This document shows, in pieces, positions 31,407 to 37,036 of a stretch of DNA of 64,000 bases. Position 1 is the first letter of the stretch. Every line of letters starts with the position of its first letter. The notes under the pieces are model-generated. The model had not been told where the DNA came from. It worked only from the letters and a program-made list of their open reading frames with translations, and did not search any database. Made by a program: the position numbers and the translations under genes. The stretch lies in assembly GCF_016772315.1 (NCBI RefSeq), contig NZ_CP053482.1, forward strand, positions 3,653,501 through 3,717,500, given 5' to 3'. This DNA is from Thiothrix subterranea (GTDB lineage Bacteria; Pseudomonadota; Gammaproteobacteria; Thiotrichales; Thiotrichaceae).

Positions 31407-31877
31407 ATGAAACCAAGCGTATACATCGAATCCTCTATTCCCAGCTATTTGACCGCACGGGCAAGCCGCGATTTGGTAAAAGCTGCACATCAACAAATCA
31501 CCCAAGAATGGTGGGAACACAAAGACCGTTTCGATTTGTATGTCTCGGAAGTTGTTATTCAAGAAATCACTCAAGGTAATGAGGATGCCGCACAACGGAG
31601 ACTAACTGCGGTAGACAATATCCCTTCACTGGCATTGGATGAAGAAGCCCTCGCATTGGCACAGAAACTGGTCAGTATGCACCTCCTTCCTGACAAAGCC
31701 TTGTTGGATGCACTGCATATTGCTTTAGCCGCCAACAATGGCATGGATTATTTATTGACGTGGAATTGTAAACACATTGCCAATGCCGTGATGCGCCCTA
31801 AGATAGAACAAATGTGCCGGATAATGGGATTAGTTCCACCTGTCATTTGCACACCAGAAGAACTGCTGGAGTTTTAA
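31407..31877 (+). CDS. PIN-domain toxin inserted in the aap operon
   Basis: A 156-residue VapC-like PIN protein. MKPSVYIESSIPSYLTARAS replaces the usual D with E in the first strand (YIESS), an arrangement seen in one PIN subfamily; EVVIQEI, DALHIALAA and LLTWNCKHIAN supply the other family residues. These proteins are RNases held by a neighbouring antitoxin. The antitoxin gene follows after one base, so the order is toxin first. It splits aapQ from aapM. Confidence 0.75.
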   Translation: MKPSVYIESSIPSYLTARASRDLVKAAHQQITQEWWEHKDRFDLYVSEVVIQEITQGNEDAAQRRLTAVDNIPSLALDEEALALAQKLVSMHLLPDKALLDALHIALAANNGMDYLLTWNCKHIANAVMRPKIEQMCRIMGLVPPVICTPEELLEF

Positions 31878-32063: not shown

Positions 32064-33116
32064 ATGGCTTTTATAAACACAGTCCGTTCCAACTTATTCA
32101 ATAACGTCTTTAACAGCACAGTGACGCTGCTGCTGGGAACGTTATTGCTCTACGCCCTCACCCATGCGTGGGGCTGGGGCATCCATCATGCAATATGGGT
32201 AGCCGATGCAGAACAGTGCAACGCAGCGCGTGGTACGGGCGCGTGCTGGGGCGTGGTCACGGAAAAATACCGTGTGATTATTTTTGGGCGTTACCCGTTT
32301 GCAGAGCAGTGGCGACCGTTCGCGGCGACCTTGTTGCTGATGGCATTATTGTTGGCAAGCTGTATGCGGATGTTTTGGAAACCGTGGTTGGCGGCGTTGT
32401 GGCTTGGGGTGTTGGCGGTATTTTTTGCTCTGATGCATGGTGGTATTTTCGGCTTGAGTGTGGTGGCAACGGATCAATGGGGTGGTTTGCCATTGACCAT
32501 TTTGCTGGCATCGTTGTCGGTGGTGGGCGCATTTCCGTTGTCGATTTTTCTGGCATTGGGACGCATGTCGGCTTTGCCAGTTATCAGAACGCTGTGCACG
32601 GTTTATGTGGAACTGATTCGCGGTGTGCCATTGATTTCGGTGCTGTTTATGGCATCGTTCCTGTTTCCGCTGTTCATGCCGGAAGGTTTTTCGATTGATG
32701 TATTGCTGCGCGTCTTAGTGGCAATGATTTTGTTTGCGGCGGCGTATTTGGCGGAAGTGATTCGTGGCGGTTTGCAGGCGATTCCGCGTGGGCAATACGA
32801 GGCGGCATCCTCGTTGGGGCTGACGTATTGGCAGATGCAACGCAAGATTATTTTGCCACAAGCCTTGGCAACGGTGGTGCCGGGGATTATGAATAATTTC
32901 ATTTCGACCTTCAAAGATACCTCGCTGGTGACGATTGTGAGTTTATACGAATTGACGGGTTCGTTGGATTTGGCGGTAAATAGCGATCCCAATTGGATGG
33001 CGTATAAGCTGGAAGGGTATTTGTTTATTGCGGCGATTTATTTTGGGTTTTGTTTCAGCTTGTCACGTTATAGCCAGTGGGTGGAGCGGCAGGTGAATCG
33101 GGGGAAGGTGCATTAA
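32064..33116 (+). CDS. aapM: General L-amino acid ABC transporter, permease AapM
   Basis: A 350-residue permease partner of AapQ. Several helices precede the permease core, with [20 protein letters not shown] and the ATPase-contact loop [23 protein letters not shown]. Its stop overlaps the aapP start (TAATG). It is 11 bases after the antitoxin, so it is now probably transcribed with the toxin pair as well as from the aap promoter. Confidence 0.93.
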
Positions 33117-33859
33117 TGTCTGATTACATGATCGAATTCGCCAAAGTTAATAAATGGTACGGCAACCAGTTTCACGTCTTGCGCGACATCGACTTGCAGG
33201 TTCGCAAGGGCGAACGCATTGTCATTTGCGGCCCTTCCGGTTCCGGCAAATCCACCCTGATCCGCTGCATTAACCGCTTGGAAGCACACCAGCAAGGTAA
33301 GCTCACGGTTGATGGGCTGGAACTCAGCGATGACGTGAAAGTGCTGCACGAAGTCCGCCGCAAAGTTGGCATGGTATTCCAGCAATTCAACCTGTTCCCG
33401 CATTTAACGGTGTTAGAAAACCTCACCCTCGCGCCGATTCAAGTGAATAAACTCTCCAAAATCGATGCGGAAGAACGTGCCATGGCACAATTACAGCGCG
33501 TGCAGATTGCGGAACAAGCGCACAAATACCCGCTGCAACTGTCCGGTGGGCAACAACAGCGCGTTGCGATTGCCCGCGCGTTGTGCCTGACCCCACAAGT
33601 TCTGCTTTTCGATGAACCCACCTCTGCCCTTGACCCGGAAATGATCAAAGAAGTGTTGGATGTGATGAGCGAATTAGCCGAGCAAGGCATCACCATGCTG
33701 TGTGTAACCCACGAAATGGGTTTCGCTAAATCGGTAGCCGATCGGGTGATCTTCATGGATGCTGGGCAGATTGTGGAAGAAAATAACCCGCACGATTTTT
33801 TCAATCGCCCGCGCAATGCGCGTACTCAGGCATTTTTGGCGAAAATATTGGCGCATTGA
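33116..33859 (+). CDS. aapP: General L-amino acid ABC transporter, ATPase AapP
   Basis: A 247-residue ABC ATPase. Walker A is GPSGSGKST near 38-46, the Q-loop is [12 protein letters not shown], the signature is [15 protein letters not shown], and Walker B is [12 protein letters not shown] with the switch His in [10 protein letters not shown]. It energises AapQM. The ATG at 33116 overlaps the aapM stop; an upstream open extension is within aapM and rejected. Confidence 0.95.
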
Positions 33860-33910
33860 GTGCCAATGAATGGGTTAGTTTTTCTAACCATTACGTTGAG
33901 AAATTATAGC

Positions 33911-33939
33911 TTGTTCATTTAGGTAAAAATCCCTATTAT
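33911..33939 (+). promoter_or_regulatory. Candidate promoter of the small RNA
   Basis: TTGTTC and TATTAT are separated by 17 bases. Transcription would start near 33946, about ten bases before the first hairpin of the structured region. Confidence 0.45.
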
Positions 33940-33945
33940 TTATTG

Positions 33946-34092
33946 CATTGCAACATAAGTGATTCAGGGTCTCTCTCCTCCTCCTAGCTTCTGAATCATT
34001 TGCAAGCGCCCACAGCGCACGGACATTGAGGGATTTCTCTCCTCCTCCTCTCTCTCCTCGTGTTCTTGCTGTGGGCGTATCTTTTAAGATAC
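33946..34092 (+). ncRNA. Candidate sRNA with two hairpins bearing anti-Shine-Dalgarno loops
   Basis: Between aapP and the NUDIX gene there is no open frame but strong structure. Hairpin 1 (33957-34001) has an 11-bp stem with one G-U pair and a 23-base loop containing CUCUCUCCUCCUCC. Hairpin 2 has a 10-bp perfect stem (34007-34016 with 34068-34077), an inner 5-bp stem and a large loop again containing UCUCUCCUCCUCC. A third small hairpin (34077-34092) follows and may end the RNA, though no long T run is present. CCUCC is the anti-Shine-Dalgarno core, so the RNA could bind ribosome sites. The minus strand would instead expose GGA repeats (CsrA-like sites). Confidence 0.5.
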
Positions 34093-34683
34093 CTATTGCA
34101 AGCAAGCCAGCAATGACAGCGTGATTCTAGCCGTCGCCCCCCATAAAATTTCCCCATCGTATTCTTGAAAATACACGATCGGTATTGGTTCTGTTACGTC
34201 GGTTAACTGTCGGTAGCGTATTTCGTGGTGTTGCGGTTGTGCCAGCCAATGCAGCGGAATGGTGAACGCGCGGGCGACTTCTTGCGGGCTAAGTATCAGT
34301 TCATAAGGCCAAGGTACGTGGGCAACGGTTGGCACAATTTGAAAGCGGCTCACGCTGTGATGCGGGCTGAGTTGCCCCAGAATAGCCACATCGTGCGGCA
34401 AAATACCGATTTCTTCGTGTGCTTCGCGCAAAGCGGTAGCGGTCAGGTCGGCATCTTCCGGGTCACGTTTGCCCCCAGCAAAAGCGACTTGCCCACTGTG
34501 ATAATCGCGCACCGACTTGGGGCGGCGAATAAACAGTAAATGCCAAGCATTATCCATGCGCACAAACGGTACTAACACCCCGGCTTCGCGACACGCATCC
34601 AGCGCGACATCATGCGTCGCTGCGCCGCGTTGTTGTAAGCGCTGCATAATGTCGGTTGGGGTCAGTTTGTCAATGGCGTTCAT
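34093..34683 (-). CDS. NUDIX hydrolase, CoA pyrophosphatase-like
   Basis: A 196-residue NUDIX enzyme. The complete NUDIX box is GGKRDPEDADLTATALREAH followed by EEIGI, and the upstream RRPKSVRDYHSGQVAFAG is typical of the NudL/CoA diphosphatase group, which cleaves coenzyme A derivatives. The ATG at 34683 was chosen over an upstream non-ATG start. It follows the desaturase gene by 13 bases on the same strand, so the two may be one transcript. Confidence 0.88.
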   Translation of the reverse strand: MNAIDKLTPTDIMQRLQQRGAATHDVALDACREAGVLVPFVRMDNAWHLLFIRRPKSVRDYHSGQVAFAGGKRDPEDADLTATALREAHEEIGILPHDVAILGQLSPHHSVSRFQIVPTVAHVPWPYELILSPQEVARAFTIPLHWLAQPQHHEIRYRQLTDVTEPIPIVYFQEYDGEILWGATARITLSLLACLQ

Positions 34684-36839: not shown

Positions 36840-37036
36840 AAAAGTAGGAGCACACTCCAGAAAATCGTGGAAGACTTCGACCTTGAACCAGTGGTTCAAG
36901 TGGGTGCGGCGAATGTTTTTCAGGCTTACCGTCGAGCGGTCATGCACACCAAATCATTACAACCACTCCCGGGGTAAGAAATTAGGCTCAAGGATAATAC
37001 CCATCTTCTCACGAGTCCCCCAGAGGTGCTCTTGCT
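36840..37036 (-). ncRNA. ssrS: 6S RNA
   Basis: No coding frame fits this gap, but the minus strand carries the hallmark 6S wording ACUUGAACCACUGGUUCAAGG followed by further stem sequence, and GUGUGCAUGACCGCUC for the middle arm. The closing stem pairs GAGCAC (37031-37026) with GUGCUC (36853-36848), and UACUUUUU follows as a 3' end. The length (about 197 bases) is near the 184 of E. coli. It lies directly downstream of zapA, the conserved position in gammaproteobacteria. 6S RNA binds sigma-70 RNA polymerase in stationary phase. Ends are estimates. Confidence 0.9.

Follow-up and report, generated by a model that had tools for sequence, protein, structure and literature searches.

Small RNAs (sRNAs) with repeated loops of the CUCCUCC type are described, in the literature that we found, in Alphaproteobacteria, and loops holding at least partial anti-Shine-Dalgarno (aSD) motifs are also reported for CyaR of Enterobacteria and RNAIII of Staphylococcus (PMC3927594). 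Within this group NfeR1 (alpha-r14; Rfam ar14, RF02344, Rhizobiales) is activated by the LysR-type regulator LsrB and has many predicted targets, mostly ABC transporter mRNAs (PMC10746234, PMC3927594). AbcR1 and AbcR2 (alpha-r15) likewise carry aSD motifs, one of them CUCCUCCC in a loop, and act on transport and metabolic mRNAs; AbcR1 is LsrB-driven, from a promoter said to bear T-N11-A motifs (PMC8844928). For NfeR1 and AbcR1/2, aSD pairing has been demonstrated with reporter mutants (PMC10746234, PMC8844928). CcsR RNAs are associated with DUF1127 genes in Alphaproteobacteria (PMC10253847), and the sibling sRNAs NgncR_162/163 govern metabolic pathways in Neisseria (PMC9973317).

Here we describe an unannotated RNA gene of Thiothrix subterranea (contig NZ_CP053482.1) in a window of 64,000 nucleotides, the whole stretch of DNA that we analysed. 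We consider it likely that the gene encodes a LysR-controlled (probably GcvA-like), trans-acting sRNA of ~141 nt whose CUCCUCC loops mask Shine-Dalgarno sequences (SDs) and thereby lower translation. The features of the locus are collected in Table 1.

Table 1. Features of the RNA gene and its surroundings, in window coordinates
Feature	Position	Strand	Remarks
Intergenic region	33859 to 34093		From the end of the ABC transporter ATPase gene (+) to the NUDIX gene (-); hosts the unannotated RNA gene
Upstream neighbour, amino-acid ABC transporter ATPase gene	33110..33859	+	Best NCBIfam model GlnQ, 321.9 bits, below the cut-off of 379
LysR-type operator T-N11-A, GGTTAG-TTTTT-CTAACC, proposed GcvA-type site	33873..33889	+	Centre 33881, ~-65 from the inferred start
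Conserved GTTGAGAAATTATAGCTTGTTC block, possible activation half-site plus -35 (TTGTTC 33911-33916)	33895..33916	+	22 stacked promoters
-10 element TATTAT	33934..33939	+	17 nt past TTGTTC
Proposed small RNA, ~141 nt, both ends inferred	33946..34086	+	Fold z, covariation, 15/16 genus genomes
Basal helix UUGCAA/UUGCAA closing hairpin 1	33948..34005 (33948-33953 with 34000-34005)	+	Fold
Hairpin 1, 11 contiguous pairs	33959..33999 (33959-33969 with 33989-33999)	+	Three pairs are G-U
Anti-SD motif 1, CUCCUCC in loop 1, within UCUCUCCUCCUCC	33975..33981	+	Kept in 15/15 homologs
Hairpin 2, 12 basal pairs (34006-34017 with 34067-34078) plus inner stems	34006..34078	+	
Anti-SD motif 2, CUCCUCC in loop 2	34039..34045	+	Kept in 15/15 homologs
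U-containing tail of possible terminator	34079..34086	+	Weak here, longest U run 4
Third hairpin GTATCTTTTAAGATAC (GTATC-TTTTAA-GATAC), overlapping the tail	34077..34092	+	Lineage-specific, 3/15 homologs
Downstream convergent neighbour, NUDIX CoA pyrophosphatase-like gene	34093..34682	-	122.2 bits, below the cut-off of 134

The RNA shares with ar14/NfeR1 the placement of aSD motifs in hairpin loops on diverged stems. It has two hairpins, whereas ar14/NfeR1 has three, each with CCUCCUCCC, a sequence absent from the RNA here and carried by only one of 15 homologs (G011, once). The ar14 covariance model scores the RNA at 15.3 bits, below the gathering cut-off of 58.8 (E 0.77 over 261 bases); 18 further loci (17 homologous, one other) were searched up to E 1, also without an ar14 match. 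We rejected ar14 membership, the near-match not being borne out in relatives. The box here, TTA-N7-TAA, also differs from the GCAT-N3-TG-N3-T proposed for VtlR/LsrB (PMC7486931, PMC8844928). AbcR1 and AbcR2 resemble the RNA in their use of aSD motifs, and AbcR1 also in the T-N11-A motifs said to lie in its promoter; they differ in having one aSD loop plus one linker motif, and AbcR2 is RpoH1-driven. No ar15 match was found even at E 10 over 261 bases. CcsR/cuckoo (CIN1) RNAs have the aSD motif in hairpin loops, a feature found here as well; the RpoHI/RpoHII promoter of the R. sphaeroides CcsR operon is unlike that of the RNA here (PMC10253847).

No Rfam family matches the RNA at gathering, and at permissive thresholds ar14 is the sole near-match of the aSD type. 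CyaR and RNAIII give no Rfam match to the element, and GcvB (RF00022) matches neither the window at the gathering threshold nor the element at E values as high as 10. The window does hold a 6S RNA, at 36851-37029 on the minus strand (RF00013, 82.6 bits). GcvB is transcribed divergently from gcvA and acts through a G/U-rich region, whereas the RNA described here presents aSD hairpins and, in 12 of 15 genomes, follows gcvA on its strand. The likeness to GcvB of enterobacteria, an sRNA under GcvA control with nutrient-uptake targets (PMC3658693), would lie in the proposed regulator and the candidate targets. A GGA-rich RNA of the CsrB/RsmZ type was not found on the presumed transcribed strand; the strand evidence favours the CU-rich strand. 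In its way of working the RNA would be like NfeR1/AbcR1, and it is neither ar14, ar15 nor GcvB by Rfam, nor CsrB-like by strand. We file it as a new sRNA family of the anti-SD kind. A search of titles and abstracts, with most subscription journals outside its scope, found no published description of such an RNA.

The plus strand folds far better than its shuffles. Over 33945-34105 the minimum free energy is -56.2 kcal/mol, whereas shuffles average -35.5 (z -6.2) and none of 200 does as well; the minus strand folds more weakly (z -2.55; 2 of 200 shuffles as good). A previous interpretation made from the letters alone (hereafter the sequence-only reading) had proposed two strong hairpins of 11 and 10 bp with a shared loop sequence. 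Both hairpins are present, the first with the 11 pairs given and the second with 12 basal pairs instead of 10, and TCTCTCCTCCTCC is indeed found in both loops. The genome has just two copies of the sequence CTCTCCTCCTCC, both at the RNA gene, and one of its reversed control. Over the 15 homologs, the mean unpaired probability of the loop CUCCUCC is 0.87-1.0 for motif 1 and 0.83-1.0 for motif 2. The region all but lacks a reading frame, close to what had been stated; two short ORFs, of 73 and 53 aa, run across the RNA gene on the minus strand.

Hairpin 2 probably doubles as the terminator hairpin. A terminator scan of this genome found none at the RNA gene. In the homologs the stretch after hairpin 2 is pyrimidine-rich and of mixed quality, with a U run of at least 5 in 7 of 15 and of at least 4 in 11 of 15 (17-18 nt past hairpin 2). 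Since these runs are mixed and the longest here is 4, hairpin 2 likely terminates transcription in several relatives, while for this genome the same is uncertain. The small third hairpin that had also been proposed exists here; it is not a conserved part of the RNA, being confined to this genome (G000), G013 and G014 and absent from the other 12 homologs.

The RNA is conserved throughout nearly the whole genus. A DNA search of 16 genus genomes found one strong locus in 15 of them, this genome included (E <=1.3e-8). No locus was found by this search in the remaining genome, G003 (best E 0.059), and the covariance model gives the same 15/1 split. The covariation alignment comprises these 15 sequences and 24 modelled pairs, 15 of which show two-sided compensatory changes (6 of 9 in hairpin 1, 9 of 11 in hairpin 2). 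Two-sided cells number 41 compared to 11.1 in shuffles, and none of 500 shuffles reaches the observed value. Pairing cells amount to 96.9%; shuffles reach 87.0% and slid versions no more than 55.7%, the latter control being flattered because the structure was taken from the same alignment. The number of further pair types is unexceptional (157 of 500 shuffles), and the basal helix UUGCAA/UUGCAA is nearly invariant and so gives little covariation evidence. While the stems vary, CUCCUCC is kept in 30 of 30 loops.

The alignment also orients the RNA: with 27 G-U cells against 2 A-C cells on the plus strand, and with a conserved promoter on that strand, we place the RNA there. An sRNA exposing anti-Shine-Dalgarno loops, as first proposed by the sequence-only reading, is therefore strongly supported in structure, strand and conservation: the fold, the covarying stems in Thiothrix relatives and the invariant loops all agree with it.

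The TTGTTC/TATTAT promoter called earlier stands as given, in position and in its 17-nt spacing. A generic promoter scan did not list it, and as TTGTTC is a weak -35 the case for this promoter rests on conservation. When we stacked 22 promoters from three genera (15 + 3 + 4) on the CTTGT block, no gap was needed between the box and the -35 block; the consensus is GtTgA.aaat.gTaGCTTGT. The form TTA-N7-TAA is found in 19 of the 22, the other three (G002, G008, G009) having GGTAAG variants. Exact GGTTAGN5CTAACC occurs once in this genome and 11 times in the 16 genus genomes, 10 of these at the RNA; the reversed control gives 7 sites in the same genomes. The box sits near the end of gcvA, ahead of the promoter. 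It fits the generic LysR form, TTA-N7/8-TAA (PMC7486931), equally well as the GcvA consensus, given in a figure legend as a T-N11-A containing CTAAT (PMC3658693). These motifs suggest that a LysR-type, GcvA-like regulator acts on the RNA promoter. The box and the link to GcvA are additions to the sequence-only reading.

In 12 of the 15 genomes with the RNA, a LysR-type regulator gene lies directly upstream on the same strand, its stop codon 57-77 nt before the CATTGCA at the RNA 5′ end. The one upstream regulator that was scored reaches 303.3 bits with the NCBIfam model 'transcriptional regulator GcvA' (cut-off 288), and the remaining ones are 69-98% identical to it. In G000, G013 and G014 an ABC transporter gene is upstream instead, the ATPase gene taking the slot that gcvA holds in 12 of 15 relatives; there the gcvA ortholog is elsewhere (85-86% identical to the query), ~614 kb from the RNA gene in G000. 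The transporter operon itself shows a further difference: at 31407-31877 (+) a gene for a 156-aa protein, presumably PIN-domain-like, and a 57-aa ORF stand between the ABC permease genes, and both are absent there in G013.

Both gcvA and the RNA are present in 15 of the 16 genus genomes and absent in one, a co-absence that rests on the single genome G003, where gcvA was not found in searches at E 1e-60 and 1e-20. Autoregulation of gcvA via the same box was considered and rejected, the box not being seen in the 200 nt upstream of gcvA in any of 15 genomes. Among eight gcvA flanks read in other genera, the box plus an aSD motif downstream was found only in two, both of genus g2; the other six (five g8, one g5) have no aSD RNA downstream of gcvA.

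Beyond the genus, a search of the order with covariance model R1 covered 63 genomes, all of one family, and 21 had a match at E <=1. Genus g8 has matches in 3 of 9 genomes (G059, G061, G062; E 9e-7 to 7e-6), which we take as real: these homologs (L048-L050) are two-hairpin RNAs with aSD loops, two of which (L048, L049) have a seven-U run after hairpin 2. They are headed by a similar box plus a GTAGCTTGT block and lie on contigs other than that of gcvA. Model R1 found no match in the other six g8 genomes, nor anywhere in genera g2 and g3.

The g2 RNAs, which the model misses, have another layout. In the two genomes read (G016/L355, G027/L356) gcvA is followed by two tandem units, each with its own promoter and LysR box. 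No gene was recognised in unit 1, which closes with CUCCUCCUU and a U-tailed hairpin (aSD unpaired at 0.66 and 0.78). Unit 2 holds a small gene with Pfam DUF1127 (33.0 and 27.8 bits, cut-off 23.3), and its 3′ end repeats the aSD CUCCUCCUU and the U-tailed hairpin. The likeness to CcsR/CIN1 comes from this genus, where an aSD RNA adjoins a DUF1127 gene whose 3′ end carries an aSD (2 genomes). In the genus of the RNA described here, inspection of the neighbours by eye recognised no DUF1127 gene beside it.

Two conserved aSD hairpins and a LysR-type promoter make the RNA probably a switch that lowers the translation of many messages. In the mechanism that we infer, a LysR-type regulator, most likely GcvA, would bind GGTTAGN5CTAACC at ~-65 and activate transcription from a sigma-70 promoter. 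The transcript would end at or soon past hairpin 2. Its two stable hairpins would keep two redundant CUCCUCC motifs single-stranded, and these loops would pair with purine-rich SDs (GGAGGAG) in a set of mRNAs, blocking 30S binding and repressing translation broadly. Duplex estimates are -20.3 for acs and -15.6 for a FadL-like leader, with -10.3 for a made-up AAGGAGGU leader.

The pattern GGAGGAG-N2-9-ATG occurs at 847 sites in the 16 genomes compared to 263 for the reversed pattern, and exceeds this control in all 16, G003 included; the excess mainly reflects ordinary Shine-Dalgarno sequences. We read the exact matches in four genomes (G000-G003), keeping 137 of the 144 listed after dropping 7 overlapping or self-antisense rows, and in 91 of the 137 the ATG begins an ORF of 60 aa or longer. 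The site recurs in three or all four of these genomes for eight gene families: acetyl-CoA synthetase (acs) and the L088 family (DsrE-like in G003) in all four, and DUF4212, an acyl-CoA-ligase-like gene, two CBS proteins, CsoS2 and L079 in three. A further set has it in two of the four (two FadL-like genes, malic enzyme, adenylate kinase, a lactate permease and two more), and PhaE and another lactate permease carry it in G000. This composition suggests that the candidate targets lean to organic-carbon uptake, activation and storage (acetate, fatty acids, lactate, PHA). Yet GGAGGAG is also retained in three of the eight families (acs, acyl-CoA-ligase-like, DsrE-like) by G003, which lacks the RNA; selection for the RNA therefore need not explain these strong SDs.

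One alternative concerns the regulator: the same sRNA with the same aSD mechanism could have a box for another LysR-type regulator, gcvA being merely an old neighbour. The separation of gcvA from the RNA in G000, G013 and G014, the different contigs in g8, the lack of a box upstream of gcvA itself and the match to the generic LysR form would all suit such control. We nevertheless think it unlikely, since gcvA adjoins the RNA in 12 of 15 genomes and is co-absent with it in G003, the box matches the T-N11-A/CTAA pattern published for GcvA (PMC3658693), and genus g2 has gcvA together with two boxes. An action in cis on the adjoining ABC transporter operon, with no set of trans targets, would draw on the transporter ATPase gene ending 13 nt before the box in G000 and on an RNAduplex estimate of ~-12 kcal/mol near the transporter gene start; with that gene upstream in only three of the 15 loci (G000, G013, G014), we hold cis action to be very improbable.

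Other alternatives leave SD pairing aside. The CU-rich loops might titrate an RNA-binding protein, such as Hfq or a CU-binding factor, and two repeated loops of variable (UCC)n length in a genome that encodes Hfq are what such a sponge would look like. It is improbable in our view, as strong SDs are complementary to the loop motif and NfeR1 and AbcR1/2 have been shown to act by aSD pairing (PMC10746234, PMC8844928). The sequence-only reading had offered the opposite strand as well, with exposed GGA motifs sequestering CsrA in the manner of CsrB/RsmZ; such an RNA would arise by read-through from the NUDIX gene. CsrA is indeed encoded alongside Hfq, and several GGA motifs fall in predicted minus-strand loops. 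Against this stand the conserved plus-strand promoter, the 27:2 G-U asymmetry, the weaker minus-strand fold, the absence of any Csr/Rsm Rfam match in the window at gathering, and the NUDIX gene itself, not seen downstream (by eye) at 5 of the 15 homologous loci. These make a minus-strand sponge the remotest of prospects. We retain a plus-strand, trans-acting sRNA that would mask SDs.

More tentatively, and at odds we would put on the unlikely side, the RNA may belong to an old module common to Alphaproteobacteria and this family, in which a GcvA/LsrB-type LysR regulator, anti-SD RNAs and DUF1127 genes switch organic-carbon assimilation against other modes by SD masking. The module would take three forms under the same LysR box: a stand-alone two-hairpin RNA (this genus and g8) and two forms in g2, one an aSD-terminator RNA, the other a DUF1127 mRNA whose 3′ end carries an aSD. 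An aSD sRNA family in a gammaproteobacterial sulfur bacterium, with a LysR operator and a DUF1127 link, would join GcvA-GcvB, LsrB-AbcR1/NfeR1 and CcsR-CcaF1 in one comparison, which would be a test of common ancestry.

Wider searches bear on the range of the family. Model R1 was run over 369 genomes of the class, behind filters that discard weak matches, and no homolog beyond the family was convincing. A contig pattern scan gave at least 80 loci from many phyla, Rhodobacteraceae included, which were assessed via model R1 and do not bound the distribution; on Rhodobacterales loci the model is weak (best 21 bits, E 0.0012 over 616 kb). Two hits of the order search outside the genus (L051, L052) and two weak hits of the class search (L231, L232; E <=0.01) were judged spurious. 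One of the latter, L231 in a distant class member (G148), has CUCCUCCUCCUCU just ahead of a strong U-tailed hairpin (~1552, reverse strand), in a different architecture. L053 (G053, genus g7) was also set aside for its different architecture and absent box; this intergenic locus holds CUCCUCCUAG twice, with one more CCCUCC between hairpins, and is perhaps another aSD RNA.

Within the genus, G001 has a second match (L054) with a single hairpin. It lies right after a phasin gene (PF09361), at ~1483-1580, and is a 13-bp hairpin with CUCUCCUCCUCC in its loop, perhaps a 3′UTR-derived aSD RNA. Finally, the number of (UCC)n repeats in the loops varies widely among homologs (for example L006 and L008, with most in L006), like a microsatellite held in a loop. 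This variation is a ready-made series in which to ask how target range depends on loop length.
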